From NCBI GenBank assembly GCA_001730015.1, contig MDLA01000175.1, positions 1 through 64,000 of the forward strand: a DNA stretch of 64,000 nt, given 5' to 3'. The notes beneath the pieces were generated by a model that was given only the letters and a program-made list of their open reading frames with translations, had not been told where the DNA came from and ran no database searches. Position numbers and translations under genes: made by a program. Below, piece by piece: positions 1,821-22,100 of this stretch; the first letter of the stretch is position 1; each line of letters begins with the position of its first letter. The DNA comes from Chromatiales bacterium (ex Bugula neritina AB1). Its GTDB lineage: Bacteria > Pseudomonadota > Gammaproteobacteria > Granulosicoccales > Granulosicoccaceae.

Positions 1821-2029
1821 CGTGGGGAGACTCCAGTTCTGTAACCAGCCTGCTCAGGAATTGCGTTCTGCTCGCAGAAAGTAAACCCCAATGCAGCAGT
1901 CAATACCACGGTAGATTATTCTAAATTTACGTGGTGATCTAAAAGAAGTATCAACGGCTGCTGTGATACGCTTAATACAGGGAGCAACCAGAGTCACGGT
2001 TGAAAAGTAACGAGCAAATCAGGTTTGTA

Positions 2030-3418
2030 ATGAGTAAGCGAGATTTTCGAGTTTTTTTAGCCTCACCCGGAGATGTGGGGCCAGAGCGTGAAGAAGTTAA
2101 AGCCATTGTGAATAGAATTGCCACAGAACGGCAAATTCGAGACACTCTGGATCTTCGATTGGTGGCCTGGGACCTACCCGGTATGGAAGTCGCCATGGTC
2201 GCGACGGATACACCACAATCCGCAATAGAGAAAGGGTTGCCCAATCCTTCAGAATGTCAGGCTGCGGTGGTTATTCTATGGTCTCGAATTGGCACGCCAT
2301 TGCCGGAAAAATACAAAAAACCTGATGGCAGTAGGTATTTGTCAGGGACAGAGTACGAGTATTGTGATGCCATAGCAGGTCACGAAGAAAACGGGCAGCC
2401 AGCGGTCTGGTTATATTGGAATCGAAACCCGCCTAGCATAACGTTGGGCGACCCAGAATACGCAGAAAAAGAAGCGCAGCTTAATCAGGTTAGCGCTTTT
2501 TTCGAAGATTTTAGTAACGCCGATGGCTCGCAGTCAGGAGGTTATGACACCTTCAACGATACCACCCACTTTACCACGCAGTTTGAGCAACGTCTAAGAG
2601 ATCATTTAACACAGTTTATACAAGAGGTTGAAAATGAAGAGCCCAGTACTTCACCTAAAGCGCCACCGGATACCGCCCTGGGGTACACCAACGAAGCGTT
2701 AAAGCTAGACCGAACAGAGCAGTGGATTAGCCTGCTAAAATTGCTCAATACCGACCGACACGCCACCCTGCTGTTGTATGGAACTACGCTGCAAAGCATG
2801 GAGCTTTTTGTCGCGCGCCTTTGGGCTTATGTGCAATCAGAGGCAGACAAAGAGCACGATCTAATCGAAGTGCCCGCCAAGCGCGATATGGAATTCCCAT
2901 GCAGTGCAGCGGAGTGGGTTAACCGCGTGCGCTTTGCTCTTGACGACGAGCGCTCTGCAAGTGAAGCGCTGGTCACACGGCTGCGCAATGCACCAGTGCT
3001 GCTCATTATCGGGCGCAATCCGTTTCATCTGTCTGAATTAACCGACCGACAACTAAAAGCACTGAAAGAATTCTTGAGCCGATCGTTGCCAGAAATATTT
3101 AGTGAAGTTGAGCAAGCCCCGGTGGTGCGGCATCCGCTGCGGGTATTGATCGCACTGAGCTACGACGATACACAAGCCGCTATCGAAGCATTCGATCAAT
3201 CGATGCAAACGGCATTTTCCGATACCGTAGTTCGCCATAGAAAGCTGAAGGAATTCCAATCGGTGGATTGGGAGCATATTGAATCCTACCTCGACGGACT
3301 CAAGCCTGCACCAAGCAACGCGGTTTACGAAAAGCTCAAGCAGATGTTCGCCAAGCTCGATCAAGAGAACATGAGTTTTCGGCAACTAACCGATTGGCTG
3401 AACACAACGTTACACTAG
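2030..3418 (+). CDS. DUF4062 (TIR-like) protein with degenerate NTPase-like C-terminal region
   Basis: First gene of the DGR-associated operon. Residues 1 to about 160 match the DUF4062 family, a Rossmann-like domain related to TIR/SEFIR domains (FRVFLASPGDVGPERE start, AAVVILWSRIGTPLP core, SGTEYEYCDA). The remaining part (about 225-460) has a strand-loop pattern like a P-loop NTPase (TLLLYGTTLQSMELF, APVLLIIGRNPF) but no intact GxxxxGK[ST], so it could be an inactive STAND-like module; that is inference. Start: the frame also opens at a TTG at 2000, but the ATG at 2030 begins directly with the domain (MSKRDFRVFLAS). The stop is 5 bases before the MoxR ATG, so the two are probably translated together. 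Likely an effector or signalling partner of the ATPase. Confidence 0.75.
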   Translation: MSKRDFRVFLASPGDVGPEREEVKAIVNRIATERQIRDTLDLRLVAWDLPGMEVAMVATDTPQSAIEKGLPNPSECQAAVVILWSRIGTPLPEKYKKPDGSRYLSGTEYEYCDAIAGHEENGQPAVWLYWNRNPPSITLGDPEYAEKEAQLNQVSAFFEDFSNADGSQSGGYDTFNDTTHFTTQFEQRLRDHLTQFIQEVENEEPSTSPKAPPDTALGYTNEALKLDRTEQWISLLKLLNTDRHATLLLYGTTLQSMELFVARLWAYVQSEADKEHDLIEVPAKRDMEFPCSAAEWVNRVRFALDDERSASEALVTRLRNAPVLLIIGRNPFHLSELTDRQLKALKEFLSRSLPEIFSEVEQAPVVRHPLRVLIALSYDDTQAAIEAFDQSMQTAFSDTVVRHRKLKEFQSVDWEHIESYLDGLKPAPSNAVYEKLKQMFAKLDQENMSFRQLTDWLNTTLH

Positions 3419-3423
3419 GCGCT

Positions 3424-4383
3424 ATGAAATCGAACCGATCAATTGCGGCAGATGGCTTACTGGGTCGGCAAAACCAGCCTTACTTCGCCCATCACGATCT
3501 AATCGCCGCAGCGAATACCGCACTCCTTTTAGAGATGCCGCTGCTGCTGACCGGAGAAGCAGGCTGTGGTAAGACGGAATTTGCCTGGGCAGCAGCTCAG
3601 CAGTTGGCCGGTGCTGAGCCCTTCAGTTTTTATGTTCGCAGTGATTCCGTATCACGCGATCTGCTCTATCGCTACGACAGCTTGCTGCGCTACGGGGAAT
3701 CCCAGTACGGTACTGATGCGGAGCGGCGTGACCGGGCTGATGTCAGGCGCTACCTGACGCTCGAAGCACTCGGCAAAGGGCTTTGCTCACCGCATGAGTC
3801 CGTTGTATTAATAGACGAGATAGACAAAGCCCCGCGCGACTTGCCCAACGATCTATTGCGAGAGCTTGAGCAGGGTGAATTTGAAATTGCCGAATTGCCC
3901 GAATTACCGGTAGCGAATGCCAAGCTGGATATCGACGACCCCTTCACTTTTAATCGCCTGATGAAAAAGCCAGACGGCAAACCCCGACCACTGATTATCA
4001 TAACCAGCAACGTTGAACGGCAACTGCCAGATCCATTCCTTCGGCGATGTATTTTTTATCATATTCAATTTCCCGGCGCTGAGCAGCTTCGGCAGATATT
4101 GCAGGCCCGTTTTCCGGGGGAAACACCCATTGTTGATCAGTCTATCTGCATTTTTACCACTCTGCGGAATGTATCTGGGCTCACCAAAAAACCGGCAACT
4201 TCAGAACTAATCAACTGGGTGCAGGCGATAATCGGTTTTCATCGCGATGCGAACAGCACATTGCAAGCAGCAGTGGTGTCGGTTGAAAATAAAAAGCGGG
4301 TGCAGTGGAGTTCCTTACCAGCCCTGTGCTGCCTTATAAAACTGCGCGAAGATCGTGAGCTCCTCGGCCTCGACGTCAGCTAG
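3424..4383 (+). CDS. MoxR-type AAA+ ATPase
   Basis: AAA+ ATPase of about 319 residues that would use ATP hydrolysis to remodel or activate partner proteins, typically von Willebrand A (vWA) proteins in MoxR systems. Walker A is LLTGEAGCGKTEFAW, Walker B is VVLIDEIDKAPRDLP, the sensor-1 strand is LIIITSNVERQLPDPFLRRC, and an arginine finger is likely in the last motif. The ORF could be extended 10 codons upstream to a TTG inside the previous gene; I chose the ATG at 3424, 5 bases after that stop. Its 3' end overlaps the next gene by 29 bases, indicating translational coupling with the FGE-domain membrane protein. Such MoxR plus vWA-like plus effector sets have been described as NTP-dependent conflict systems. 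Confidence 0.85.
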   Translation: MKSNRSIAADGLLGRQNQPYFAHHDLIAAANTALLLEMPLLLTGEAGCGKTEFAWAAAQQLAGAEPFSFYVRSDSVSRDLLYRYDSLLRYGESQYGTDAERRDRADVRRYLTLEALGKGLCSPHESVVLIDEIDKAPRDLPNDLLRELEQGEFEIAELPELPVANAKLDIDDPFTFNRLMKKPDGKPRPLIIITSNVERQLPDPFLRRCIFYHIQFPGAEQLRQILQARFPGETPIVDQSICIFTTLRNVSGLTKKPATSELINWVQAIIGFHRDANSTLQAAVVSVENKKRVQWSSLPALCCLIKLREDRELLGLDVS

Positions 4384-7300
4384 CAACATCGAACTTCCTA
4401 TCGATGATCTGCTGGCTCGAATTCATCGTCAGCGTACGCTGGGTGCCAGAGAGTATATAGCCGTTCAACAGCTGCTGGCTGCCCTTACCGGCGCCGATTT
4501 CAACACGGTTCGCGCCTCACTAGCGTCTCTGTTGTCGAGCAACCCAGATGAATGGGAGGAGATAGCCGCCCAGATCGATGTACTTCGGCTAGAGGCGCAA
4601 GGTGATTCGTTGCCGCAATTTAGCGGGAAGGGGGCACGAGCTGATGTCAGTGAAAGTGTGGCGGTTTCACTTGAGAGCACGCGCAACGATAACGCGAAAT
4701 TTGAGTGGGTAAAGTGGCTAAAAACCCGCTATCAGGCACTTTGCTTTCAGTTATCGAATTGGAATAGAGGGGTGTTCCTTTCTCTAGGACTTGCCGCTGG
4801 TCTGGGTGTTTATGGCATCAATGGTAAATATCTCGATCCGGCAACGGTTGATGAAATTCAAAATCCCGACCCCCGCGGTGATGATCCTGTAATTATCCAT
4901 CCCATGGACTCAACGGTTAAGTTCAAGGTCACACAAGTCCCTGGTAGCGAAGTGACCAGGCCAATCAGCGCCCCAAAAGAATCGATCTCACTCATTCTAA
5001 TTCTCACGCTGATTTCGGCACTGTTGGCACTAATCGGCTGGCGCCTACGTACCGTCGCTCGACTGCCGTCGAACCGCCTGCAGAAAGATTTTGAAAGCAC
5101 CATGGAGCAGGTGTACCAAAGTAGGGAAATTCTGGAAGCGCAATTCAGTAAAAGCGGCAAGCGTTTTTTACTCGACTATGCGGTGCCACTCACTATACCG
5201 GTATCGCCCGCAGCGATAGCAGATAGCGCCACGCTGTTAGGCCGGCTGCATAGACAAGAGGCCGGGAGGCAGCTCGATGGTATCCGCACGGTTAACCGCA
5301 GTGTTGCGTCCACCGGGCAGTTTACGCCAATAATGAAACCGGCAAGGCGGCGATTGCCCGTTTGTATGCTGGTTGATATAGAGCGGGGTGATCATCCGTG
5401 GCTTGGCAGTTTTAATCGGATTGTCGCGGCGTGGCAGAAAGAGGGCGTAGAGTTTGAACTATATCGCTTTAACAGCTCACCTCATAGAGTGCAAAGCCAG
5501 CAGTCAAAAGAATGGACAGCGCTCGGTGAGCTGGTCACTCGCGACCAGGACCTACCTTTGATTATCTTTTCCCGAAGTCTGGACCCCGACGCACTTCATG
5601 GCAAAGGAGCAGGCTGGTTACAGTGGATCAAAAGCTGGTCGGCGGCCTGCTGGATAGACCCCGATCCCTGGCCCGATGCAAATCTCAGCGCCCGCCGTGT
5701 GAGGCAAATTGCCACGCTGGAGGCAGCTGGTTTGCCGCGCTTCCCAATGACCGACGGGGGCTTGTGCGGCGCAGCCGACTGGCTTGCCGGTACCGCTACA
5801 GCAACGGTCTGTCAATTTGACAGCCGGGGTCTTTCAATTGTTGATAGTTCTAAACGGGATTCCGCTTTGGCGCTATGGGGAGCCGCTGCTGGCATGGTTC
5901 CCGACCCCAGTTGGGATCAGCTAGAGGCAATTCGTGCGCACTTTATAGAAATATACAGCGTTTTCAGCAGTCGGCACGATGTGGCTTATCTAATCAAACT
6001 GGTACACGACAAAACGGGTGAATCTGAAGATCAGGGTGGCCGTGTGCTTAACGTTACTGAAAAACTTCAGAGTGACTGGCTGGCCGATCATCGCCGCCAG
6101 GCAACGCATACAGATAATCTACGTGATTTTGAAGAACGAGCAAGAAAGTTGTTGCTGCAGCAACTGGGCGACAGACCCCCGGACGACCCGCTTCTAGCGC
6201 ATTGGTGGTCTTACAAGCGAGCTATGCACCAGGCAGTTGTGCAGCCACAGCGAGCAAAGGACTTGATCGAACCGCTACTGCAATCACCAGTGGCCGATAG
6301 CGTAGTACGCTGGATCAAACAGGAATGTAAGCTATCCGAGAATGGTGCGGATCGCCTGGGCCTTGCAAATACGGAAACGCTACGCCGTGCGGTCGGTCAG
6401 GCGCGTGGCGTTGATTGGCGAGAAGTACTCGGGCAAGCTAAATCCGACAACTGGCGTCGAGCCCTGCTTGAGCATATAGCCCATTGGAATCCCGGCTGGC
6501 GTTTGCTTTGGCTAGTCCCTCTGGCCGGAATGCTATTTCTATCGAGTCAGATTCTAGGCTCGCAATGGCTGAAAGATCAACTGCCGCTTCGCCACGCTAC
6601 GCTTCCAGCGTCCTGGGTGTTGGCAGAGCTAAAAGCAACAGAGCAAGTAGCGTTACCGGAGATGGTTCAAATTACAGGTGGCAGTTTTAAAATGGGTTCG
6701 ATGACCGGTGACAAGGATGAACAGCCGGTTCATTCGGTTACCGTAGCTTCTTTTGATATGTCAAAAACGGAAGTAACGGTGGAGCAATATGCGGCGTGTG
6801 TATTGGCTGGTCAGTGTGATGAGCCTGAAACACCTTATTCGACATGTAGCTGGCCCGGATTGGAGGGGCTGGAGATTGTTGAGGGAAGGGTGATATTTGG
6901 CACTGAGCAGTCAAAACAACGCACGCAAGACCCGATTAACTGCGTAACCTGGCATCAGGCGCAACAGTACGCGAAGTATGTCAGTGCATGGATTCCCGGT
7001 GCCCGTTTGCCGAGCGAGGCAGAATGGGAATATGCAGCCAGAGATGGTGGAAAGCAACGGCAATATCCATGGGGAGACAGCCCGCCAGAGGGGTGCAAAT
7101 TCGCTGTAATCAACTCCTGTAGTTATGATCGGCCGCAGCCGGTGTGTTCTATTCCGGCAGGTAATACCTCAGCGGGACTATGCGATATGGCTGGCAATGT
7201 ATGGGAGTGGCTGGAAGATGATTGGCACGGCAATTACGACGGTGCGCCCGATGACGGATCGGCCTGGCTATCAAAGGAAGAAGGCCGGAGCCGTGTCATT

Positions 7301-7417
7301 CGGGGCGGCTCGTTCAGCAACGGCCCGCGCAACGCGCGCGTGGCGGATCGCTACTGGTTCGAGCCGGACAATCGCGCCGTCAGCCTGGGTTTTCGTCTAT
7401 CGAGGTCTTTACCCTGA
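4355..7417 (+). CDS. large membrane protein with vWA-like and FGE-sulfatase (C-type lectin fold) domains; DGR target 1
   Basis: 1020-residue protein and one of the two diversified targets. The N-terminal 100 residues are helical and resemble N-termini of CoxE/vWA-type partners of MoxR ATPases. Hydrophobic segments lie near 145-165, 207-228 and 715-735. Residues about 330-490 look like a degenerate vWA/Rossmann domain (LPVCMLVDIERGD, LIIFSRSLDPDAL) without an intact MIDAS motif. From about 770 to 1018 there is a complete FGE-sulfatase/SUMF1-type fold (GGSFKMGS, LPSEAEWEYAARDG, DMAGNVWEW, VIRGGSF, LGFRLS). The VR occupies codons about 977-1017. Expected FGE catalytic cysteines are not evident in the pocket, so I read it as a binding scaffold. 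It starts at a GTG within the moxR gene. It probably couples ligand binding by the variable lectin face to the MoxR/DUF4062 partners at the membrane. Confidence 0.85.
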   Translation: MSSSASTSASNIELPIDDLLARIHRQRTLGAREYIAVQQLLAALTGADFNTVRASLASLLSSNPDEWEEIAAQIDVLRLEAQGDSLPQFSGKGARADVSESVAVSLESTRNDNAKFEWVKWLKTRYQALCFQLSNWNRGVFLSLGLAAGLGVYGINGKYLDPATVDEIQNPDPRGDDPVIIHPMDSTVKFKVTQVPGSEVTRPISAPKESISLILILTLISALLALIGWRLRTVARLPSNRLQKDFESTMEQVYQSREILEAQFSKSGKRFLLDYAVPLTIPVSPAAIADSATLLGRLHRQEAGRQLDGIRTVNRSVASTGQFTPIMKPARRRLPVCMLVDIERGDHPWLGSFNRIVAAWQKEGVEFELYRFNSSPHRVQSQQSKEWTALGELVTRDQDLPLIIFSRSLDPDALHGKGAGWLQWIKSWSAACWIDPDPWPDANLSARRVRQIATLEAAGLPRFPMTDGGLCGAADWLAGTATATVCQFDSRGLSIVDSSKRDSALALWGAAAGMVPDPSWDQLEAIRAHFIEIYSVFSSRHDVAYLIKLVHDKTGESEDQGGRVLNVTEKLQSDWLADHRRQATHTDNLRDFEERARKLLLQQLGDRPPDDPLLAHWWSYKRAMHQAVVQPQRAKDLIEPLLQSPVADSVVRWIKQECKLSENGADRLGLANTETLRRAVGQARGVDWREVLGQAKSDNWRRALLEHIAHWNPGWRLLWLVPLAGMLFLSSQILGSQWLKDQLPLRHATLPASWVLAELKATEQVALPEMVQITGGSFKMGSMTGDKDEQPVHSVTVASFDMSKTEVTVEQYAACVLAGQCDEPETPYSTCSWPGLEGLEIVEGRVIFGTEQSKQRTQDPINCVTWHQAQQYAKYVSAWIPGARLPSEAEWEYAARDGGKQRQYPWGDSPPEGCKFAVINSCSYDRPQPVCSIPAGNTSAGLCDMAGNVWEWLEDDWHGNYDGAPDDGSAWLSKEEGRSRVIRGGSFSNGPRNARVADRYWFEPDNRAVSLGFRLSRSLP
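7283..7404 (+). repeat. DGR variable repeat VR1
   Basis: 122 bp at the 3' end of the first FGE gene, aligned without gaps to the template repeat at 9367-9488. It differs at 12 positions and every one is an adenine in the template (A to G six times, A to T five times, A to C once). The changes alter codons at the lectin ligand face, including template Asn to Ser, Asp, Tyr, Phe or Ala, Arg to Trp and Asp to Val. The block CTGGGTTTTCGTCTATCGAG ending at 7404 is identical to the template, after which VR and template diverge (GTCTT versus CTGAA), as expected for an initiation-of-mutagenic-homing site. The gene stops 13 bases later. Confidence 0.97.
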
Positions 7418-7502
7418 TCACTTTTACCCTCTTGCCCTTTTCGCTTTTATGGGTCAATCTGTAGTGCAGGCTGCGTTTAATAACAACAGGGAGGATGTTA
7501 AA

Positions 7503-7979
7503 ATGCAGATTAGCTTGGTAACGCTCGCTTTTGATCCGGCGACCGGGGGTTTTCCACAGGCTCCGTTGAAAGAGATTGAAGGCGAAATAGTCAATGTCGT
7601 TGAGCATTTTTTTCACTTTGAAGAGGTGCCCCGACTTTTACTGGTGGTTCACCATCGCGAGCAACCGCGCAGCGGGGGTAAGTCCAAGCGGCTCGTGGTG
7701 GGAGATTTACCACCTGAAGATCGCGAATTATATAAGCGATTATCGGCTTGGCGTTTGGGGCGCTCGCAAGCTGATGGGGTTCCGGTCTATATCATCTTTA
7801 CCAATCGGCACCTTGCGGATTTAGCGCGCCGCAGGCCGCGTTCAAATCGCGAGTTGGTTGAGGTACGTGGTGTCGGTGAGGCGAAAGCTGGCCAATACGG
7901 AGCCGAGGTACTCAAAGTGGTGAGTCAGTATCTATCGGCAGAGGATACCCAGGAAGCCCCGAAGAAAGACGATGTCTAG
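7503..7979 (+). CDS. HRDC-domain DGR accessory protein
   Basis: 158-residue soluble protein. An ORF in this frame runs back through VR1, but the real start is the ATG at 7503, preceded by a strong AGGGAGG site about 8 bases upstream. The C-terminal half (about 75-150) matches an HRDC helical nucleic-acid-binding domain (LYKRLSAWRLGRSQADGVPVY, then RRPRSNRELVEVRGVGEAK). HRDC proteins are a known accessory family of DGRs, probably binding template RNA or cDNA. The N-terminal half (1-70) is unassigned. It overlaps avd by 8 bases and sits between target 1 and the reverse transcriptase, so it is part of the same transcript. Confidence 0.88.
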   Translation: MQISLVTLAFDPATGGFPQAPLKEIEGEIVNVVEHFFHFEEVPRLLLVVHHREQPRSGGKSKRLVVGDLPPEDRELYKRLSAWRLGRSQADGVPVYIIFTNRHLADLARRRPRSNRELVEVRGVGEAKAGQYGAEVLKVVSQYLSAEDTQEAPKKDDV

Positions 7980-8331
7980 CGGTAGTATTCCGACGGTCTA
8001 TGTGCAGTGGGAGACTTTTCTGCATTGGCTGCTAGATCGCACTGAGGGCTTTCCAAAGCGATTGCGGTTCACGCTAACCAGTCGCATCGATAATCGCGCA
8101 CTCGATGTCTTTGAACGGTTGGTCGAAGCACGGTACTCCCGAGACAAGATCAATTTGCTTTCAGCGATAAATCGTGATTTGGAGATTCTTCGCCTGCTAT
8201 TGCGAATTGCCCATGATCGTCGTGCGCTTGACCATCGGGCTTTTGATCATGCTACCGTGCAGATAGATACGACCGGCCGTATGATCGGGGGGTGGCTCAG
8301 GCAGCAGCGACAGCGTAGTAATACTCGTTGA
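7972..8331 (+). CDS. avd: Avd, DGR accessory variability determinant
   Basis: 119-residue all-helical basic protein matching the Avd family (four-helix bundle, pentameric in the Bordetella phage system) that binds the reverse transcriptase and template RNA and is needed for cDNA synthesis. Family hallmarks are visible: FPKRLRFTLTSRID in helix 2, LVEARYSRDK in the middle, LEILRLLLRIAHDRRAL and the C-terminal GRMIGGWLRQQR, where Avd proteins usually end with GGWI/LK. The ATG lies inside the end of the HRDC gene and the TGA shares 4 bases (TTGA) with the TTG start of the RT gene, so the three are translationally coupled. Confidence 0.93.
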   Translation: MSSGSIPTVYVQWETFLHWLLDRTEGFPKRLRFTLTSRIDNRALDVFERLVEARYSRDKINLLSAINRDLEILRLLLRIAHDRRALDHRAFDHATVQIDTTGRMIGGWLRQQRQRSNTR

Positions 8332-9680
8332 ATTACCTGGCGTTGACAAGTTTTGAGTCGTTGTTGAAGGCGACTAAGCGGGCGGCAAAAGGTAAGCGAT
8401 CTAAAAGAGATGTCGCTGCATTTCTAATGGACGCTGAAAAGCACTGCCGTCAGCTATCTCTAGAATTGAGGCGCAAGCCCGGTGAACCGGGAGCGTGGCA
8501 GCCAGGTAATGCTAAACTTATTACCATCAGAGATCCCAAGCCTCGGCAAATCTCTGTGCAGCCCTTTCGCGACAGGGTAGTTCATCATGCCTTGTGTCCG
8601 GGCTTTGAATCAGTTTTGGAGCGGTACGCAATTCACCACTCATATGCCTGTAGATCCGGTAAAGGGCAGCATAAGGCTCTGGCATCGACACAGAGCTTTG
8701 CGCGCCGACACGATTGGGTTTTTAAGGGAGATATCGGCGCCTATTTTTACAGTATTCCGCATGATGAATTGCTGGCTCGTCTGGAGCGAAGAGTAATCGA
8801 TAAGCAGGTAATGGCTTGGCTACGATTTATTGTTGCCGGAGAATCACAGCAAGGCGTGGGCCTTCCGATTGGGTCCTTGCTGTCTCAGCACTTCGCCAAT
8901 TTCTACCTTTCAGCTCTGGATCATTGGCTGACCGACGAATTAGGTTTTGGTGCAACAATAAGATATATGGATGACTTTCTCGTTTTTGGTAGCAAAGGGT
9001 CGCTTGTTGAGCTGCGCAGTAAATTACCGGAATTTCTGCAACAACAACTGGGATTGAAGTTGAATTCTCGTGTCAGTCAATTGATACCTGTCGCCGCTGG
9101 TGTGCCGTTTTTAGGGTTTCGCGTTTATCCGGCAACAATAAGGTTGACGGGTGAACGCTGGCGTCGGTTCAAAAAACGTTATAAGGCAATTGAGCGACAG
9201 CATTTGTCTGGTGAAATAGACGACAATGAAGCTGCAAATGCAATGGCTAGCCAGTTTGCTCATATAGGTCAATTTGACACGCGGGCTCGATGCAGGTCAA
9301 CTATACAGGGTGCCAACAACAAGCCTGCCGGTTTGTTGCGAGGTACTGAGGTCGGCAGTCGACAAAGGCCAGAACCGTGTCATTCGGGGCGGCTCGTTCA
9401 ACAACGGCCCGCGCAACGCGCGCGTGGCGAATCGCAACAGGAACGAGCCGGACAATCGCAACGACAACCTGGGTTTTCGTCTATCGAGCTGAACACTGGT
9501 GGTAAGCCTTCGCTTATCGCTGGCGGAACCGATGCTTCGCGCTTACGGGTGTGCGGCCTGTTTCCAGGTGTTGACCAGACCGCTGACCAGAGCTTGCCGC
9601 TGTTGCAGGCCAAAGCCAGGTGCGGAGCACGCGGCGTGCAAACGTGGCGTGCTACCGCTTTATTTCAGCCCAAAAGATGA
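8328..9680 (+). CDS. diversity-generating retroelement reverse transcriptase (ORF runs through the template repeat)
   Basis: Reverse transcriptase that copies the template RNA with errors opposite adenine. Motifs are in the expected order: KGDIGAYFYSIP (palm Asp 135), the DGR hallmark LPIGSLLSQHFANFYL at 179-194, catalytic YMDD at 213-216, and GVPFLGFRVYP at 258-268. Recognisable RT sequence ends near residue 325 (about 9305). The frame then stays open for 125 more codons, reading the template repeat in a different frame from the one used in the targets and producing a Gln/Arg-rich tail. It starts at TTG 8328 overlapping the avd stop; no in-frame ATG occurs before residue 34. The TGA overlaps the ATG of target 2 (ATGA, 9677-9680), which suggests the long frame is really translated. 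A normal DGR RT is about 330-400 residues. Confidence 0.95.
   Translation: MNYLALTSFESLLKATKRAAKGKRSKRDVAAFLMDAEKHCRQLSLELRRKPGEPGAWQPGNAKLITIRDPKPRQISVQPFRDRVVHHALCPGFESVLERYAIHHSYACRSGKGQHKALASTQSFARRHDWVFKGDIGAYFYSIPHDELLARLERRVIDKQVMAWLRFIVAGESQQGVGLPIGSLLSQHFANFYLSALDHWLTDELGFGATIRYMDDFLVFGSKGSLVELRSKLPEFLQQQLGLKLNSRVSQLIPVAAGVPFLGFRVYPATIRLTGERWRRFKKRYKAIERQHLSGEIDDNEAANAMASQFAHIGQFDTRARCRSTIQGANNKPAGLLRGTEVGSRQRPEPCHSGRLVQQRPAQRARGESQQERAGQSQRQPGFSSIELNTGGKPSLIAGGTDASRLRVCGLFPGVDQTADQSLPLLQAKARCGARGVQTWRATALFQPKR
9367..9488 (+). repeat. DGR template repeat (TR)
   Basis: 122-bp template for both variable repeats, lying inside the 3' part of the RT open frame. In the frame used by the targets it reads RVIRGGSFNNGPRNARVANR followed by further Asn-rich sequence up to LGFRLS. 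Many AAC codons are present; these allow 15 amino acids and no stop when adenines are mutated. The 3' border at 9488 (CTATCGAG followed by CTGAAC) differs from both VRs (followed by GTCTT), as expected for the homing site versus its template copy. The 188 bases between TR and the next gene (9489-9676) are probably the spacer used for priming cDNA; I see no independent gene there. Confidence 0.97.
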
Positions 9681-10654
9681 AGTCAGTATTTGAATTTAAG
9701 CCAAAGTGGCTCCGGCATACCGGCACGCTGCTGTTGCTTATTGCAGTGGTGGCACCGCTAACAGTGCTGGTCTTGAGGGCAGCGAATTCGGAGGATCAGT
9801 CCAAGCCGACTCTGCGGCCTGCCATGGTTGTGCTGCCCGCTGGAGAATTCAACATGGGCAGCGCAGAATCTGAAGCTAATCGAGACACAGACGAGCTGCA
9901 GCACCGAGTTTCCATCACCCGGCCTTTTGCCATATCCCAAACTGAAGTGACTCAGGGGCAGTATCAGTTAGCGACAGGAAAAACTGCTATTAGTGATTGC
10001 TCAGACGGTATCGATGTTGGAACAGGTGGCAATTTGCCCGTTGTCTGTGTGAGCTGGTTCGATGCCGTGGAATATGCTAATGCTATGTCTAGAATCGAAG
10101 GGTTGACTGAGGTCTATGAAATTAACTACTCGGATGTTAACTGGAAAAAGGAGGCGAACGGCTATCGCTTGCCTACAGAAGCGGAGTGGGAGTATGCGGC
10201 ACGCGCTGGTACATCGACTACCTTTGTTGGGACCGATAGTGAAAACGCCGTGTGTGAGTTCGCCAATGTCGCTGACAGAACTGCCAGTCTCAAGCATAGC
10301 GATTGGAACTCATTTGCTTGCGACGATAGCCATGTTTACCTCTCTCCTGTGGAAAATCGGCGGTTTAACGCATGGTGGCTTTATGGTTTTGGAGGGAATG
10401 CTTTGGAGTGGGTATGGGACTGGTACGGAGACTACGATACTAACGACGCTACTGACCCAAGCGGGCCGGTAGATGGCCAGTTCCGTGTCATTCGGGGCGG
10501 CTCGTTCAACTTCGGCCCGCGCAACGCGCGCGTGGCGAATCGCGGCTGGTACGTGCCGGGCGCTCGCAACGGCAGCCTGGGTTTTCGTCTATCGAGGTCT
10601 TGTTACTCTTCTCTTTTGCCCTCTAGCCCTCTGCAGGATTGCCTAAAAAAATAA
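9677..10654 (+). CDS. membrane-anchored FGE-sulfatase (C-type lectin fold) protein; DGR target 2
   Basis: 325-residue protein with a basic N-terminus, one transmembrane segment at about 14-36 and a periplasm-facing FGE-sulfatase fold from about 50 to 310 (VVLPAGEFNMGS, ISQTEVTQGQY, RLPTEAEWEYAARAGT, YGFGGNALEWVWDW, FRVIRGGSFNFG, LGFRLSRS). The ORF extends 19 codons upstream, but the ATG at 9677 overlaps the RT stop (ATGA) and begins a sensible membrane anchor. The VR occupies codons about 267-306. It lies downstream of the TR, so the two targets bracket the HRDC-avd-RT-TR core. It has no vWA region, so it may be a stand-alone displayed sensor or pair with the CHAT protein that follows. Enzymatic FGE activity is not indicated. 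Confidence 0.9.
   Translation: MKSVFEFKPKWLRHTGTLLLLIAVVAPLTVLVLRAANSEDQSKPTLRPAMVVLPAGEFNMGSAESEANRDTDELQHRVSITRPFAISQTEVTQGQYQLATGKTAISDCSDGIDVGTGGNLPVVCVSWFDAVEYANAMSRIEGLTEVYEINYSDVNWKKEANGYRLPTEAEWEYAARAGTSTTFVGTDSENAVCEFANVADRTASLKHSDWNSFACDDSHVYLSPVENRRFNAWWLYGFGGNALEWVWDWYGDYDTNDATDPSGPVDGQFRVIRGGSFNFGPRNARVANRGWYVPGARNGSLGFRLSRSCYSSLLPSSPLQDCLKK
10475..10596 (+). repeat. DGR variable repeat VR2
   Basis: 122 bp aligned without gaps to the template repeat, with 14 differences, all at template adenines, and different from VR1 at most variable sites. Changed codons include Asn to Phe, Gly, Tyr, Ala and Ser, Arg to Trp, Glu to Val and Asp to Gly. The terminal block CTGGGTTTTCGTCTATCGAG is identical in TR, VR1 and VR2. 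As in VR1 the next bases are GTCTT rather than the template's CTGAA. A pyrimidine-rich stretch starting 15 bases after the VR (10611-10632) matches 18 of 22 bases at the same distance behind VR1 (7419-7440). Confidence 0.97.
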
Positions 10655-10845: not shown

Positions 10846-13800
10846 ATGACTGAAAAAACCTATAGCTTCACGGGAAAAAAAGACAAAGGCGGTAGCAGCA
10901 GGCTGCTGTCTGAGTCTGCCGCACAGGTCGAGTACGAACTTACCTTCGACAGCATCGGCCGTTCTGATTCAACAGAAGAATCCATCAAGCTCGACGACAA
11001 TCAACTGCTTGAAGTAGAGCTCGACTCCGTTACCTTGCTGATGACCCTCGCTGAGCTCAAGGGCTATGCTCAAGCAGAGCCCAGCCGTGGAGATGCAGGC
11101 AATTCACTGCCAACGCAGATGCTTTCTTTTAGCGATTCGCGTGGCATGGTGGGGCTGGCGATTCGGGTTCTGCGGGTGCTCGGGGTCAATGTTGCGGAAA
11201 AAGCCATTCAAATAGCGACGGCAAAGGTTGAGGGCTGGATCAACCCCGGCGGTCCAGGGGTATACAAGCTCAACGAAAAGGGTACGTTAAGCCGGCAGTC
11301 GTTGCCGACTGGCGATGAGCCGGTATTGTTGCTGCTGCACGGTACCGCCAGCTCAACTGAAAAAGCCTTTGCCAATTTGCTGCCTGGTGTTGATAAAGAC
11401 GGAAAGCAACAGGCCAACTACAACAATGGCTGGAGCGAGCTATACCAGCAGTTTCACGGTCGGGTTTTCGCACTGGAGCAGAAAACGCTGTCCCAGACGC
11501 CGGTCACTAACGTTATGCAGTTTTTGGATGTTTGGTCGGAAACTGGTGGTCCTCCGCTGGTTTTACTCAGTCACAGCAGGGGCGGCATTGTCGGGGACTA
11601 TCTGAGTTCCCTGAAAGACTGGGAAAAGCACTCTGCCGAAATTCTCGATGCGTTGCCTGCGGCTGATTTTGAGACCGGGCAGTTGCAGGCGTTGAATGCA
11701 AAAATTAGCAATGTGCCACGCAGCAAGCGCCCTGAAGTGCTTCGGCACATCCGGGTGGGCAGTCCGGCTGCTGGAACCAGTCTGGCCAGCGAGAAGACTC
11801 ATATCTGGTTGTCGGTGCTGGCGGATCTGCTCGGTCGAATTCCGGGTGTCGGTATTGGCCTGGGTGCCTTGGGCGATCTGGCCGTGGCTATTGTCAAGGA
11901 AGGGCTGGAGCCGGGTACGCTGCCGGGAATTGATGCGCAAAAAAGCGATAGCCTGTTTATCAAGGCGGCGCAGTTTTTTCAGTGCGAACATACCGAGCTG
12001 CTGGCGGTGTCGGGCGACAGCAAAGGCATGATGAAAAAAACGCTGATGGTCATTTTCGGCGATAAAAATGATCTGGTGGTCGATACCAGCTCTATGCTGC
12101 TCGGGCCAAGGTATAAATCGCGCTATCAATTGTCAATTAGCGATGGCGAGATCATTCACACCTCCTATTTCAAGCACCCAAAGCTTCGGCGTGATCTGGG
12201 CAAAGCACTTGACGGCAATATCGGGGCGACTGATTTTCAACAGCTGGACCATCATTCCGGTAGTCGTGGTCGTGTCAATGCTGCCAGCCCGAACGAAGCG
12301 CTAAATCTGCCCTGTGCGTTTTTGCTACCTGGAATTATGGGTAGCGAGCTTTCGGTAGGGAAGGCTGGTGATAGCAAAGATATCTGGCTGGATGCGTTCA
12401 GGTTGTTTTTGGGCAAGGGGACAAAGCTTGATATAAAAAACGAAGAGGTAAAATCCAGCGGAGTGCTGGAAAAAGGCTATGAGCATTTTGTTGATTATGT
12501 TCGTGCGGGTAACGCCATGCATGTGGTGCCGTTTGGCTATGACTGGCGAAAAACAATATTTGACTCGGTAGACGAATTTGAAAGGCAACTGCAAATTCGC
12601 CTGCAAGCCGCACCACAACAACCGATTGTGCTGCTGTGCCACAGCATGGGCGGGCTGGTTGCGCGCGCCTGGCGTAGCAGGAACCCGGATACCTGGAGCA
12701 GGATTGTCAGCAATGGTGGCCGCATGGTGCAGTTCGGTACACCAAACTACGGTTCATGGACGGTGGCGAAAATATTTCAGGGCGAAGAGAAAATTCTGTC
12801 GTTGCTGGCTATTGCCGATATAAAAAATAGCGAAGATGACTGGCTGAAAATGATCAGTAAGTTTCCAGGGTTGCTGGAGCTGAGTGACTTTCACGATAGC
12901 CGAGTTGATCTAGAGAAACGTGAAACCTGGTCGGGTCTGAAGGCTAAAGTGACCTCGCCGGTCGCTGTCCTAAAAAAGGCATCGAAAGCCATAGAAGAAT
13001 TGGCGCAAGATCAATTCGAACAGGACGAGGCCATAGTCTACGTGGCGGGTGTCAGCGACGAAACTCCGTCTTTGGATATTGTTGATTCGAAAGCCGTTGT
13101 CGTTAATAGCCGTGGCGCTGGTGATGGCAGAGTATTGTGGCCGGTCGGTGAGGGTAGAAAGCCGATCGACTATTACATGGGGGTGGTGCATGGGGATTTG
13201 CTTAACAGCAAGGAGCACTTCGACGCCATTATAGAACTTGCTCTGACTGGCCGAACTGAGAAGCTTGAGAAATCCCCGCCGCTAGTGGCTTCTCGTGGAA
13301 CGGTTTCTGGTTCTTCCAGGGAAGGGGCTATGGCAATGCCGCCTGCCGGTGGTGTGCTGTATCCGTCGGCGGCAGAGCTTTCCGCAGCGGCGTTGGGTGG
13401 TGTGATAAAAGCGAAAATTGCCAGTAAAGACGAAAAGCAAACGCTGCGATTATCCGTGACCCACGGCAATTTGCTGTATTGCGGAAACGCGGTAATCGTC
13501 GGGCATTATATTGGTGATGGTATCAGGCGCGCTGAACGTGCGCTGGACTCATCACTAAATGATGTGCTGACTCAGCGCTGGAATCTGGGAACAGAATTCT
13601 ATGCGGGCGAGGTTGGAACCCATGAAGTTGCACTGCGAGACAGCCTGAACAATACAACATTTGGTCCGGCCGGTGCAATAGTGGTTGGCTTGGGGCGCAT
13701 GGGCGAACTGCAAAAAGGCGACCTCATTGCCACGGTTAGAAACGGCGTTCTAAAGTACGCGCAAATGTGCGCCGAGCGAGGGATGGATTGCTCTGGCCTC

Positions 13801-16314
13801 AAGCTGGCCGCGCTGTTAATTGGCAGCGGGCAGGAGGTTTTGAAACTGCCTGATGTACTCGATGGTACGGTGCGAGGTGTGATGCTGGCCAATAAGATTC
13901 TACAGGCCAACCGTGCGGAGGGCCTGAAGCCCATTCGCATCAGCGAGCTGGAATTTATTGAATGGCATCTGGATATGGCCATCGAGGCCAGACACCTGCT
14001 AGAGCATTTGCCGAGTACCGTGTCGTATCAGCTACCGGTAGAGCCTGGGCTGGGCAAGACGGCTGGCGGGCACAAGCGTGCTTATTTGCATGAAAACACT
14101 GACTGGTGGGATTCACTGAAAGTCAGAATGGTCAAGCCGCCCAAAAACAAGAACCGCAAAAAGAGCAAATGCACTGACAAGAGTGAAAAATCCAGAGATA
14201 AAGAGCAGGATCAGTTATCGCAGCTGTCGTTTTCCGGGGTCGGCGGCAGAGCCCTGGGCATTAGGGATTCGGTCTTGTTCAACCGCCGAGAGATTGATGC
14301 TTTTCTCACGCCTATACTCAGTAACACCAACGCTCCTGAGTCAGAGCAGGTTCAAGCACTTTTTGAACAGTTGATACCCGCTAGTTTGAAACCGCTAGCT
14401 GCTCAGAGACGCAATCTTGTGGTTAATATGGACCCTCGCTCCGCTTATCTGCCGTGGGAAATACTGGTCGATCGCAAAACCGACGACGGTGAGCCTATGG
14501 CCGTAGCAGCGGGTTTGGTCAGGCGAATTGTGCCGGACCTAGACGATAGGCCGATCGAGCATGTGACCCACGCGGAAGGTGATACCGCCATGCTGATTGG
14601 CAATCCGCCCGGTGGTCCGGGGTTCCAGAATCTACCGGGTGCTTATCGGGAAGCGGCGGAGCTGGCAAAGCAACTTAAAAAGTCTGACTGGCACGTGAAT
14701 GACAATAACCTGTTTAAGGACACCATAGTCGAACCAACAGCCGCGCGAATCCGGCAGGATATATTGGTCAAGGACTACCGCATTCTGCACTTTGCCGCCC
14801 ATGGCATTCACGATAATGAAAACCCGGCCAAGTCCGGCGTGGTGATTGGTTACGACCACGCTAGAGAAGCGATCGAGCTGTTCGCACCGCATCACGTTCG
14901 CGCTATTCGCAACAAGCCGAGCCTGGTTTTTATCAACTGCTGTCACACCGGGAAACTTGAAGACTGGAGTGGTCACAAGCTCAGCGCTAGTCTGGCGGTC
15001 GAGTTTATCAAAGCCGGTGTTCACTGTGTGATCGGCGCGGGCTGGGCCGTGGCCGATGAAGCGGCAAAGGATTTTTCCAAAACTATTTACGAATGCTTGT
15101 TGCAGGGTAAGGATTTTGGTTTTTCTGTACGCCGCGCCAGAGAGTATGTGTACCAGCGGCATCCGGATACTAATACCTGGGCGGCATTCCAGTGTTATGG
15201 TGACCCCGGCTTTGTACTGACCCGGCGCGGTCGTGCCAATTACGCTACAGAAGAAGAGACCTTTTGCGATGTAACCGAGCTGCTGTGTGCTCTAGACAAC
15301 ATCCGCAGTGACTTTTCCGGCAGCAAAGGCCCGGGCAGTACTGGTAATCGATCGTCATTGCTGCGTCGAACAAATACTCTCTATGCAAAAGCAAAGCACC
15401 AGAAAGACCCGGGTTCAAACCAGTGCTGGGCTGACCGTGGTGATGTGCTTACGCAATTTGCCGCAATCTATTGCGGCCTGGATGAGCAAAGTAAGGCAAT
15501 CGAGTTTCTACAGCTTGCATCAGAGGCTGATCGATCAAAAGTCCCGCTGACTGATCTTCTTCTGGTGTTGAATTACAAAGCACGGTATGCGGAACGACGA
15601 TTCTATGAACTGGGAAAATTAGATAGTACAAAAACCGACCTAAACAAAAATGTGCAGCAGCAAAAGGCATGCAATGAGGATATTAAAGGAATCCTCGATT
15701 CCCTGAGGTTCTATGCAGACATTCACGACGATGCGGATACATTGCAGCAGTTAGCGTCGGCATATAAGCTTTTTGCAATGACATTCGATAACGCAAAAGA
15801 AAAGAAAACAAAAAGAGAACAACGCGATATTCGAAAGCTGCAAGAGCGTGAAATTCAAAACATGATAGCCGTGTATTGCAGCGCCGTTGAAAAAGCAGAC
15901 AAAGCGGATAGAGCCGCCTACTACCCGGCTATTAATGCAATGCTAGGCTATCTATTGCTGAGAGATGATTCAAATAATGCGAGCGAGCAAAGCAAGGGCA
16001 AGGTGGCAAACTTGCGCGAAACGATTGTCAATTCGCTTCCTGGTCACAACAGTAAGAGCTTCTGGGATCTGATTTCGCGTTTGGAGGCCGATTTTACCTT
16101 TGCATTGGATGACGGAGAATTCAACGAAGCTATGGCCAGAGAAATAGCCTCGAAGATTATTGATGTGGCTGCCCGTTACGGATCGCCTATACAGCTGGAT
16201 TCGGTCGCCAAGCAATTCCGATGCGTAAGCCTGTTAAGTAACGAATCTGAAGCGAGCAAGGCAGCGGAAATTGCTTACGACTTGATACAGGAGTATAGAG
16301 ACGCTTATCTATAG
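10846..16314 (+). CDS. giant effector-like protein: two alpha/beta-hydrolase domains, CHAT protease domain, C-terminal helical repeats
   Basis: 1822 residues, no signal peptide. Domain 1 (about 150-450) is a lipase-like alpha/beta hydrolase with nucleophile motif SHSRGG (S244). Domain 2 (about 490-800) is a second, LCAT/lipase-like hydrolase with CHSMGG (S600) and ends around a DGRVLWPVGEG block. Residues about 840-1130 are mixed alpha/beta and unassigned. Residues about 1200-1480 form a CHAT (caspase-like) domain: His 1319 in HFAAHG and Cys 1366 in INCCHTG make the dyad, and AFQCYGDPGFVL closes the fold. The C-terminal 340 residues are helical and TPR-like. GGAG/GGGAG sites precede the ATG. 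Position directly behind the DGR targets suggests it is the executioner or signalling arm: a protease plus lipases that could damage membrane or activate partners when the sensors bind. That role is inference. Confidence 0.85.
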   Translation: MTEKTYSFTGKKDKGGSSRLLSESAAQVEYELTFDSIGRSDSTEESIKLDDNQLLEVELDSVTLLMTLAELKGYAQAEPSRGDAGNSLPTQMLSFSDSRGMVGLAIRVLRVLGVNVAEKAIQIATAKVEGWINPGGPGVYKLNEKGTLSRQSLPTGDEPVLLLLHGTASSTEKAFANLLPGVDKDGKQQANYNNGWSELYQQFHGRVFALEQKTLSQTPVTNVMQFLDVWSETGGPPLVLLSHSRGGIVGDYLSSLKDWEKHSAEILDALPAADFETGQLQALNAKISNVPRSKRPEVLRHIRVGSPAAGTSLASEKTHIWLSVLADLLGRIPGVGIGLGALGDLAVAIVKEGLEPGTLPGIDAQKSDSLFIKAAQFFQCEHTELLAVSGDSKGMMKKTLMVIFGDKNDLVVDTSSMLLGPRYKSRYQLSISDGEIIHTSYFKHPKLRRDLGKALDGNIGATDFQQLDHHSGSRGRVNAASPNEALNLPCAFLLPGIMGSELSVGKAGDSKDIWLDAFRLFLGKGTKLDIKNEEVKSSGVLEKGYEHFVDYVRAGNAMHVVPFGYDWRKTIFDSVDEFERQLQIRLQAAPQQPIVLLCHSMGGLVARAWRSRNPDTWSRIVSNGGRMVQFGTPNYGSWTVAKIFQGEEKILSLLAIADIKNSEDDWLKMISKFPGLLELSDFHDSRVDLEKRETWSGLKAKVTSPVAVLKKASKAIEELAQDQFEQDEAIVYVAGVSDETPSLDIVDSKAVVVNSRGAGDGRVLWPVGEGRKPIDYYMGVVHGDLLNSKEHFDAIIELALTGRTEKLEKSPPLVASRGTVSGSSREGAMAMPPAGGVLYPSAAELSAAALGGVIKAKIASKDEKQTLRLSVTHGNLLYCGNAVIVGHYIGDGIRRAERALDSSLNDVLTQRWNLGTEFYAGEVGTHEVALRDSLNNTTFGPAGAIVVGLGRMGELQKGDLIATVRNGVLKYAQMCAERGMDCSGLKLAALLIGSGQEVLKLPDVLDGTVRGVMLANKILQANRAEGLKPIRISELEFIEWHLDMAIEARHLLEHLPSTVSYQLPVEPGLGKTAGGHKRAYLHENTDWWDSLKVRMVKPPKNKNRKKSKCTDKSEKSRDKEQDQLSQLSFSGVGGRALGIRDSVLFNRREIDAFLTPILSNTNAPESEQVQALFEQLIPASLKPLAAQRRNLVVNMDPRSAYLPWEILVDRKTDDGEPMAVAAGLVRRIVPDLDDRPIEHVTHAEGDTAMLIGNPPGGPGFQNLPGAYREAAELAKQLKKSDWHVNDNNLFKDTIVEPTAARIRQDILVKDYRILHFAAHGIHDNENPAKSGVVIGYDHAREAIELFAPHHVRAIRNKPSLVFINCCHTGKLEDWSGHKLSASLAVEFIKAGVHCVIGAGWAVADEAAKDFSKTIYECLLQGKDFGFSVRRAREYVYQRHPDTNTWAAFQCYGDPGFVLTRRGRANYATEEETFCDVTELLCALDNIRSDFSGSKGPGSTGNRSSLLRRTNTLYAKAKHQKDPGSNQCWADRGDVLTQFAAIYCGLDEQSKAIEFLQLASEADRSKVPLTDLLLVLNYKARYAERRFYELGKLDSTKTDLNKNVQQQKACNEDIKGILDSLRFYADIHDDADTLQQLASAYKLFAMTFDNAKEKKTKREQRDIRKLQEREIQNMIAVYCSAVEKADKADRAAYYPAINAMLGYLLLRDDSNNASEQSKGKVANLRETIVNSLPGHNSKSFWDLISRLEADFTFALDDGEFNEAMAREIASKIIDVAARYGSPIQLDSVAKQFRCVSLLSNESEASKAAEIAYDLIQEYRDAYL

Positions 16315-19161: not shown

Positions 19162-22100
19162 TTATTGTCCTAACATTCTTTTCAGGAAATGCGGTTTCTT
19201 ATCTGATTTTCCTGGAATTAGCTCATCATACGTGGCTGTTCCGGTAGCAGCTGTCGCTTCAGTGTCTGGTTGCAATGCGTTTTGCCTGCAGGGTGTTGCC
19301 GCCTTGGGGACAGCTGTTGCAGGGTTCTGGGATTCAATGTCTGCTGCTATTTGTTCAAGCGTCAATAGCGACATCTTTGCCTGGTCCAGTTCTGCCGAGA
19401 GTTCCTGCTGTACTCTAACGATTATCCTTATGGATAAAAGCGAGTGCCCTCCTATGTCGAAAAAGTTGTCATTGATACTGACTCGCTGTGTACCCAGAAC
19501 GTCAGCCCAGATAGCCGCCAGCTGTCTTTCAAGTTCCGTTCGTGGTGCGACATAGGTGTCTACGGGGGCAAAAGGATCGAGTAGTGAGGCCCGATCGACT
19601 TCACCCGTTTCCAACAGCGGAAGTTCATCGAGCTCGGCGATATGATGCGGTGTGTGACTCCTGCTTAATTCAAGCCTTGCGTATTTTCTAAACTCGCTGA
19701 TCGTAATCGGTTCCCAGTCGTCGGCCTTGTACCATGCGACTAGTTGTCGCTCGTTGGCTGTGTTCAGGAACGAACGAACCACGATAGATTCCACTGCAGG
19801 ATGCTGCAGAAGGGTTGATTCAATCAGCGGTATGTCGGGATCAATATCCGGATTGTGCACTGGTGCCTGATCAACGAGTTCGCTTGTGGCACTGGTGGGG
19901 TTCTGTACCCGGTGTAGTTCTTCGACAATATACAGTGGCTGGTATGGGGCGACAATTACATTGGGTGCCGGTTGTGTGGCAATAATTCTTGTAAGTGCTG
20001 CCAGCCCTTGATCTGAACTGACGCCCAGCTCTAGTGTTTTCTCCAGTACAGGGTTCACCTTTGCCTGGGCTTTTCCGGCCTTTGATGCGGATGGGGGATT
20101 GATTTTCTGCATTGTGAATTCTTTGATTTCAACGCAGGTATTGCCGTATTCATCAGTTATGGTGATATCAAAGCAAGCCGTGGCAAATGGTTCTGTTGAT
20201 GTGCTGGTTAGCCTTATGTGGCTTACTGCTTTTCCGGGTATAGCGCTGGTTAAGGTCAGAGTGCCGTATTCGACGGGAACATAAAGATCTGCGGTCGGGT
20301 TGATATCCGGAATCAATTTCTGTGCGCCACCCGTTGCCATATCCAGCATGGCCGGATGTAACTGATAGTGCTGTAGATCGTCTGCGTAGGGCGGTGCCAG
20401 TTGCAGACGTGCTATGGCCTCTTGCTCACCATAAGTTACGCTTGCCAGTGCGGACCAGCGCTCTCCGAACTTAAGGTTCGGGTGATGGTCGTCGTCGGTG
20501 AATTTCTGTATGTCCCCGGTGCATCGTGCTGATACATCCGCAATACTGATATACGAAGTTTCTGTCTGTACGGGAGCCAGCTCTCCGATGGCATGCTCGA
20601 TTTCACCGTCGGATTGCTGACTGATAATTCGAAATCGACATCCGTCACTGTTTGTTGCAAAGTCAGGATCAATCAGTTCGACATGCATTTCAAGCGTTTC
20701 GTCATCGGCAACGATTAATGGTTGTAGAAATTTTGCATTTTTAATAACAATATTCTGATTACCACATTTATCATTGAAAGCCGCTCTGGCGAGTTCTATA
20801 AAACCAGACCCCGGTATCAGAGCTGTGCCGTCTTTGAGCCGGTGCTCATTCAGAACCCAGTGATTCGTGGTAGATAACAGCGTTTTATAGACAATATGGT
20901 TCTCCGACAGGCTGGTACGGATATCAAGTAGCGGATGGTCGACAGTGGACCCCGTTAGTTTTACGGGTGCGGTTGTAGTGTTCTTTTGTGCGGCCCGGTC
21001 TGCTGCCATGCCGGTGTCTTTCCAGGCTGGCCAATTGACGCTGAATACGTTGTTATTTCCGATTGACCCCTGATAATTCGCGAAGCCGTCGAGGTAACTA
21101 TTAGCTGCTGCGTAGTCAATCTGCCCGATTAAGCCTGAAAAAGCCGAGGATGAACTGTACAGCCCCAGGAAATCCATCCGTGATAGATCAAAAGTGGCCG
21201 TGATTATATTGGTGGAATCTACTTTGGCCGCAAGAACCTGTTCGATTTCTGTCGCGGGCTTTAATGCCAGCAGCGAGTCTTGTGCGATGCCTGCGGTATG
21301 GAGGCATCCGTCGAGCTCTCCTATATTGTTGATAATATCTGTTCGCAGCCCGGATACGGCATTTGCGTCGGTGAAATCACATCCGTAGTTATAGACAGAT
21401 GCGCCTGTATTTTCAATTTCGATTATGGTGTCTATAATGTGCTGTCTGTCTGCGGAAATTTCGCTCCATCGCTCTCGAGGTGGAAGTCCTGTGCGGCTTG
21501 CCAGCACCAGTTTTATATTCTCGGCCTGATTGGCCAATTGCTTCGCGGCAGCAAGGCCAAGCCCGCCGTGTCCACCGGTAATCAGGTAGACGCCATTGTT
21601 TTTAATTCCTGTGTAGAGATCATTGCTGGTTGATGTGCCCGGTACTTTTTGAAAAGTACGCGAAAACCGCGAAGCGCCACGTATGGCCAGCTGTGTCGCA
21701 ACAGGGGGAGTCTCAATTGTTGCGATCAGTTGCTTAAAGTATTGACCGTCTGTCTCGGTTGAGGGCAGATCGAGAACACTGCAGCTAAGCTCTGGAACTT
21801 CATTGTTTATTACTTCGCTGGCGCCGTGTATTAGCGCCTGGATCGGGTTGGAGATTGTCTCTCCAGCGAGTGATACTGCCTGCCTGGTAAGTACTAATAG
21901 TGGTAATTTACCGGGAGGCGGGTTATTTCCTATAGATCTTGCGATGGCTAGCAATGTATCGAAGCAACGGAATTGATCCTGCTGGCGGGAATCAACTGTG
22001 GGTTCAGCGGCACAGCCTGGTGCCATCGCATGGATAATAATATCCGGCATGCCTTGATCACTAAAGTGGTTGTGCACAAGAGCACCGAGATCGGCATTAC

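Follow-up and report, generated by a model that had tools for sequence, protein, structure and literature searches.

The window analysed here is a 64,000-nucleotide stretch (positions 1 to 64,000 of contig MDLA01000175.1, assembly GCA_001730015.1) from Chromatiales bacterium (ex Bugula neritina AB1). It carries a diversity-generating retroelement (DGR) in which one template repeat (TR) accompanies a reverse transcriptase (RT) and two variable repeats (VRs), each VR lying in a gene of the FGE-sulfatase/CLec type and followed by a chain of short CT-initiated units. In order along the window, the features of the cassette are:

2000..3418, + strand: iSTAND-like protein of 472 aa that may be the third component of a ternary conflict system; match to Pfam iSTAND at 22.6 bits (cut-off 24)
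3394..4383, + strand: MoxR-like AAA ATPase, 329 aa; AAA_5 39 bits (cut-off 22)
4355..7417, + strand: target 1, 1020 aa, C-terminal FGE-sulfatase/CLec domain with VR1; FGE-sulfatase 189.8 bits
7283..7404, + strand: VR1, 12 of 12 differences from the TR at adenines
7407..7450, + strand: chain after VR1, six CT-initiated units of 7-8 nt, starting at 7407, 7414, 7421, 7429, 7437 and 7444
7503..7979, + strand: HRDC-domain protein, 158 aa; HRDC 68.6 bits (cut-off 23.8)
7972..8331, + strand: Avd, 119 aa; NCBIfam DivGenRetAVD 92.4 bits (cut-off 80)
8328..9680, + strand: DGR reverse transcriptase, 450-aa open reading frame (ORF), TTG start; RVT_1 60.5 bits
9367..9488, + strand: TR, 122 bp; the genome has no second TR of this kind
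9677..10654, + strand: target 2, FGE-sulfatase/CLec protein with VR2; FGE-sulfatase 166.9 bits
10475..10596, + strand: VR2, 14 of 14 differences from the TR at adenines
10599..10636, + strand: chain after VR2, five CT-initiated units of 7-8 nt, starting at 10599, 10606, 10613, 10621 and 10629

A two-target retroelement with adenine-only variation

An earlier note, made from the sequence, had described this locus as a complete DGR with two targets and purely adenine-directed variation. On the computed alignment its repeat coordinates, the gap-free match over 122 bp and the counts of 12 and 14 differences proved exact, and all 26 differences fall on template adenines. The TR comprises 28 A, 38 C, 38 G and 18 T; changes affect 12 of the 28 adenines in VR1 and 14 of the 28 in VR2, and none of the 94 C, G or T sites in either repeat. 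The hypergeometric chance that the differences all fall on A is 2.3e-9 for VR1 and 4.7e-11 for VR2, and the 0/188 differences at non-A site pairs place a 95% upper bound of 1.6% on divergence. VR1 and VR2 are themselves 17 sites apart, as the same note had claimed that they differ; six adenines are altered in both, with the same new base at just three, which fits independent writing events. As replacement bases, G and T appear 12 times each and C twice. In the target frame the 26 changes occupy codon positions 1 or 2 only (11 and 15), where 27 of the 28 TR adenines stand, and the 16 variable TR codons, none of which can turn into a stop, would allow about 10^15.2 proteins per VR. The repeat length of 122 bp held, with the small correction that the repeat can be extended by 2 nt upstream to 124 bp, VR2 then showing 15 differences, again all at A. 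No third VR was found elsewhere in the 7.44-Mb genome, and a third target was rejected because all other TR matches have E values of at least 2.75.

The genes bear out the description of a complete element: HRDC, Avd and RT sit between VR1 and the TR, Avd scores above its cut-off, and the FGE-sulfatase domains of targets 1 and 2 span VR1 and VR2. The closest solved structure to target 2 is 2y3c, a Treponema denticola variable protein, and that to the RT is 8ub7, which we take to be the RT of phage BPP-1. The middle domain of target 1 is Rossmann-like according to a domain model; Foldseek, run on the 170-aa domain, found nothing at E 0.001, and the predicted structure of the whole protein was poor (pLDDT 37.6) and was set aside. 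None of the eight ORFs checked contains an internal stop. The TR lies wholly within the RT reading frame, which continues to 9680, a point that the earlier note had missed; the same arrangement occurs at loci L015, L022, L023, L026 and L028. Protein-level selection on the TR-encoded RT tail was considered and rejected, as no clear dependence on codon position emerges beyond the TR when the window is compared with L015 (28/38, 26/37 and 22/37 identical at positions 1, 2 and 3). The ATG of target 2 overlaps the RT stop, and an in-frame GTG lies upstream at 9620.

A position of the RT outside the DGR clade had been named beforehand as an observation that would count against the element being a DGR. 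A tree of 71 RTs places the window RT inside the clade: 69 rows, including the window and BPP-1, are split from two other RTs of the window's own genome with 99% support in the Shimodaira–Hasegawa-like approximate likelihood ratio test (SH-aLRT), the tree being made by a quick method with these two rows as its only outgroup and some forks left open. The sister of the window RT (60% identical) belongs to L015, filed as a Saprospiraceae metagenome bin, where the same seven genes occur in the same order with an adenine-only TR/VR of their own. The iSTAND-like homologue of L015 reaches 25.3 bits for DUF4062 (cut-off 24.7) and 23.6 bits for iSTAND (cut-off 24). A more distant cassette, on Prosthecochloris aestuarii plasmid pPAES01 (L053), shares the order FGE target, HRDC, Avd, RT, TR and FGE target, an RT 42.6% identical to that of the window, and nearly identical VR 3' flanks with CTT words. 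It differs in that its TR starts just past the RT stop, no gene annotated MoxR or iSTAND occurs in the 17 kb examined, and CTTT words are too few for class assignment.

The host genome (7.44 Mb in 207 contigs, 98.6% complete, 5.14% estimated contamination) contains two further two-target DGRs, on contigs C51 (L039) and C125 (L040). The TR/VR scanner used in this work tolerates A mismatches and penalises others, so that the adenine shares it yields are biased upward; the window counts are scanner-free. At C51 one VR shows 17 differences from the TR, 16 of them at A, and the other 19, of which 18 are at A; at C125 all 14 differences in each of two VRs are at A. Each of these loci has the order AAA ATPase, long FGE target, HRDC, RT, TR and short FGE target; no Avd turned up among the ORFs that were scanned at these two loci. 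Comparable RTs (E 1e-20) occur in 3 of 57 genomes, the window's own genome included.

Since no non-A site pair differs and the ORFs lack internal stops, the window DGR is likely to have been active recently, and we infer retrohoming in this strain.

Unit chains downstream of the variable repeats

The unit chain was first spotted by eye, in comparing what follows each repeat. Its units are contiguous, their spacing of 7, 7, 8 and 8 nt is common to VR1 and VR2, and the chain runs to six units after VR1 and five after VR2 versus two after the TR. The 3' flanks of VR1 and VR2 are identical at 27 of 38 nt (maximum 25 in 20,000 shuffles), as against 10/38 and 7/38 between the TR flank and those of VR1 and VR2; in the FGE coding DNA that precedes the VRs, the two targets match at 255/564 positions (45%). 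An 18-mer, CTTTTRCCCTCTNGCCCT, occurs exactly only at 7421 and 10613, both 17 nt past a VR end, and no other copy with fewer than three mismatches exists in the 7.4-Mb genome. After VR1 this 18-mer lies beyond the target 1 stop but after VR2 it is in-frame coding sequence; the flank therefore seems to be kept as DNA and not as protein. The VR2 flank of the window contains one exact CTTT only.

Two other ideas about the flank were tried and dropped. Pyrimidine richness was abandoned because other clades are purine-rich and the 7-8-nt spacing fits better. Complementarity between TR and VR 3' flanks, which might have served as a guide, is absent in the window (z 0.1 and -1.0). In the Bacteroidales DGRs L022, L024, L027, L028 and L030, 15-31 nt at or close to the TR 3' edge match the reverse complement of the VR 3' flank with z from 7.5 to 9.2; this complementarity persists despite differing letters between loci and could let template RNA pair with the target strand.

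We surveyed VR flanks at DGR loci from genome contigs, genomes, plasmids, phages and IMG/VR. In the first sets, 55 loci were scanned and 47 loci with 64 flanks kept; excluded were L043 and L044 (other RTs) and L077, L078, L029, L104 and L054 (TR/VR pair missing or doubtful). L064 did not pass the 75%-at-A filter, L102 was left unscanned since its contig has the same length as that of L017, the second VR of L074 was dropped and the VR end of L053 was set by hand. A further set of 80 loci, nine of them without a TR/VR pair, contributed 73 flanks. The 137 flanks were merged at 80% identity into 108 VR flanks, 43 from DGRs whose TR lies downstream of the RT and 65 from DGRs whose TR lies upstream.

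Counting a chain as at least four CT starts at 7-8-nt steps, we found chains after 39 of the 108 VRs and after none of the 108 TRs. Both classes contribute, with 12/43 VR flanks where the TR is downstream and 27/65 where it is upstream (TR flanks 0/43 and 0/65). Controls gave 0.7% among 867 gene ends, taken from the first-set loci and not from the IMG/VR loci, and 1-2% among dinucleotide shuffles. Self-similarity at lags of 6-9 nt (p<0.05) likewise marks 37% of VR flanks in the TR-downstream class and 32% in the TR-upstream class, versus 5% and 3% of TR flanks. The words that make up the units differ by class. Where the TR is downstream, 35% of VRs but 0% of TRs have two or more CTTT words in the 50 nt beyond them, the spacing of CTTT being 7 nt in eight and 8 nt in 11 of 33 cases; where the TR is upstream, two or more TCTG words follow 52% of VRs and 0% of TRs, and CTG spacings are 7 nt in 62 and 8 nt in 39 of 127 cases. 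Among the usable TR-downstream loci that were new in the second of the first sets, nine of ten have CTTT at least twice, four of these nine being cyanobacterial or close kin and two close kin of L017. The statistic was then fixed beforehand for a later, phage-type-only set of 79 loci, 53 of which were new; 46 had a TR/VR pair, and 34 flanks were independent. In this set chains follow 11 of 34 VRs and 0 of 34 TRs, with CTG spacings of 7 nt (25) and 8 nt (23) among 59. In phage loci L217, L221, L233, L243, L250 and similar, ATG-rich units (e.g., CATG) were seen by eye after VRs instead of CTG.

Unit type follows the RT tree. With each locus labelled by its first listed VR, 44 labelled rows require five changes of type, versus a shuffled mean of 19.2 (minimum 15); when unclassified rows are treated as a fourth state, 16 changes are needed, versus 34.0 in shuffles (minimum 27). 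Such agreement is expected if the machinery of each clade reads its own units, and shared descent of cassettes would add to it. The flanks at C51 and C125 were classed as AGC-type, with near-perfect AGCAACA repeats after one L039 VR.

In BPP-1, the initiation of mutagenic homing (IMH) element is the last 21 bp of the VR, a stretch that carries five mismatches to the TR and, according to passages of PMC3240598, governs which way sequence is transferred. Our recount gives the same five mismatches in the last 21 bp, three of which turn TGA, within a CTGA word, into ACC. The BPP-1 DGR (L057) resembles that of the window in its RT and in adenine-directed TR/VR differences; unlike the window, it has its TR before the RT, a GC hairpin after the VR, a tail-fibre target and no gene annotated HRDC in the piece examined. 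A BPP-1-type GC-rich hairpin (7-10 bp stem, 4-nt loop) is absent from the window: within 130 nt of VR1 there is no stem of at least 5 bp, and after VR2 only a 6-bp AT-rich stem at +74. Passages of PMC3240598 state, citing unpublished data, that hairpins are predicted for most bacterial DGRs too. In our sample, with a stem of at least 7 bp and a loop of 3-5 nt required within 90 nt of the VR, hairpins follow 26 of 65 VRs where the TR is upstream versus 3 of 43 where it is downstream (2-3% in shuffles), and under this stem criterion the prediction is not borne out.

In the open-licence literature, a scope that leaves aside subscription papers and outside preprints, we found no description of a repeat chain 3' of a VR; nor is one described in the passages of PMC3240598, PMC12875486, PMC4372165, PMC4891356, PMC6642488, PMC7290462, PMC6199706, PMC7517822 and PMC10907252 that were available to us.

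Setting beside putative conflict-system genes

The placement of a DGR next to MoxR-like and iSTAND-like genes is already in print. According to passages of Dore et al. (2024, PMC10907252), clade 5 DGRs are found mostly in multicellular bacteria, often several per genome and near MoxR ternary and NACHT systems, and a sensor role for DGR variable domains is a proposal of these authors. Their systems, as described in those passages, are like that of the window in having one long and one short CLec target, several DGRs per large genome and a MoxR-like ATPase directly upstream of the long target. Unlike the window, HRDC is absent from the main text, no repeat chain 3' of a VR is described in the passages concerned, and the iSTAND-like partner in the window is only weakly recognised. 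The window fits this picture by its gene layout.

Passages of Kaur et al. (2020, PMC7159879) report FGS domains in about 22% of iSTAND systems, and the adjoining iSTAND-like, MoxR-like and FGS-bearing genes of the window resemble the iSTAND-MoxR-vWA ternary systems described there, with the difference that the iSTAND match of the window is under its cut-off and the vWA assignment is tentative. A strict gene order is printed for VMAP systems in the same passages, and the order third component, MoxR, effector-bearing gene is found here on one strand (2000-3418, 3394-4383 and 4355-7417). The ATPase is above the cut-off for AAA_5, and its MoxR-clade label is provisional. Since target 1 stands beside MoxR-like and iSTAND-like genes, the most probable role of the variable domains would be sensing within a conflict system, whether immune or cell-death.

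Beside the DGR, a gene at 10846-16314 encodes an 1822-aa protein with CHAT protease and alpha/beta-hydrolase domains, a possible effector. It was considered as an effector linked to the DGR and set aside; homologues with 31-34% identity occur in three of 56 related genomes (G044, G035 and G020). An ISL3-family transposase (108-1253) lies upstream of the iSTAND-like gene. Farther along, a 1942-aa ORF on the minus strand (19162-24990) resembles a modular polyketide synthase, judging from motifs in its translation.

Mechanism, alternatives and significance

Taken together, we favour the reading of the locus as a complete cellular DGR with two FGE/CLec targets whose recipients are told from the TR by the 3' CT-unit chain (probability roughly 0.85). 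The TR transcript would be bound by RT and Avd, perhaps with HRDC, and copied by the RT into cDNA with random bases opposite template adenines. This cDNA would pair with VR1 or VR2 and replace it, favoured by the downstream unit chain, and the replacement would rewrite the variable face of two FGE/CLec proteins. On this view the chain would serve this DGR family as an IMH-type mark of the recipient and would stand in for the hairpin of phage-type DGRs. Avd is a pentamer, and one may speculate that the chain binds protein (Avd contacting more than one unit), remains open in single-stranded form or works in another way. For the function of the chain taken by itself, the odds are about even.

Ordinary gene conversion with selection on binding residues could also produce VR differences, and the restriction of all changes to codon positions 1 and 2 would suit it; that all 26 changes lie on A, with none at the 188 C, G or T site pairs, and that a DGR RT and Avd adjoin the TR make it extremely improbable. 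It is rather unlikely, too, that the cassette is a relic whose VRs were last written some time ago and which no longer works. Such a state would agree with the TTG start and long tail of the RT frame, with the ISL3 transposase upstream and with the degraded DGR loci known in Thiohalocapsa (from passages of Dore et al., PMC10907252), but intact reading in eight ORFs, the bound of at most 1.6% divergence from 0/188 non-A differences and the presence of two further complete DGRs, laid out alike, in this genome speak for a working element.

The chain might instead reflect shared descent of VR-bearing gene ends, repeats grown by slippage, or a transcription or translation element, an explanation that we hold to be possible but lean against. 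The VR1 and VR2 targets are indeed homologous, 69 of the 108 VR flanks are without a chain of four, and several CTTT loci are cyanobacterial, heptanucleotide repeats being known to occur in cyanobacteria. Against these points, the flank is more strongly conserved than the coding DNA next to it, is non-coding after one VR and coding after the other, and has counterparts at just 0.7% of the 867 gene ends in the same loci, while unit type tracks the RT tree and chains occur in phage and cellular loci alike.

Several observations weigh against the favoured reading. (i) The 69 VR flanks under a chain of four mean that the signal is common, not universal. (ii) CTTT and CT were picked as words once the first three sets had been viewed, and the clean replicate is phage-type only. 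(iii) The CTG words at the BPP-1 VR end are 10 nt apart, not 7-8. (iv) Complementing the 4-nt spacer between VR and hairpin in BPP-1 kept wild-type activity, according to passages of PMC3240598, the IMH itself being untouched by that assay. (v) Activity is judged likely from the assembled sequence of a single strain. (vi) The iSTAND and vWA assignments lack or miss curated cut-offs. (vii) The assembly is fragmented (207 contigs) and carries the 5.14% contamination estimate.

A broader proposal, to which we give an even chance, is that DGRs generally mark their recipient sites with a short chain of degenerate 7-8-nt units immediately 3' of the VR, read by machinery of the same clade and restricting transfer to the direction TR to VR. 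Under this proposal the unit types would be CTTT in this cellular clade, TCTGA in phage DGRs and AGC in another cellular clade, and the IMH of BPP-1 would be a short, irregular instance of the unit chain. The window, in which two VRs have the same 7,7,8,8 chain and no hairpin, would be a clean natural example.

The retroelement is an ordinary member of a described DGR group, and the unit chain is the new part. The window adds a clear two-target DGR, one of three in its genome, to those described beside conflict-system genes. A recipient mark that spares the TR has been worked out for BPP-1, as IMH plus hairpin, and in the sampled DGRs with a downstream TR a BPP-1-like hairpin occurs near the chance rate (3/43 VRs). 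If the reading of the chain as a recipient mark is true, an RT-clade-specific sequence signal would make target recognition directly testable, and the chain could help to find remote targets in genomes.

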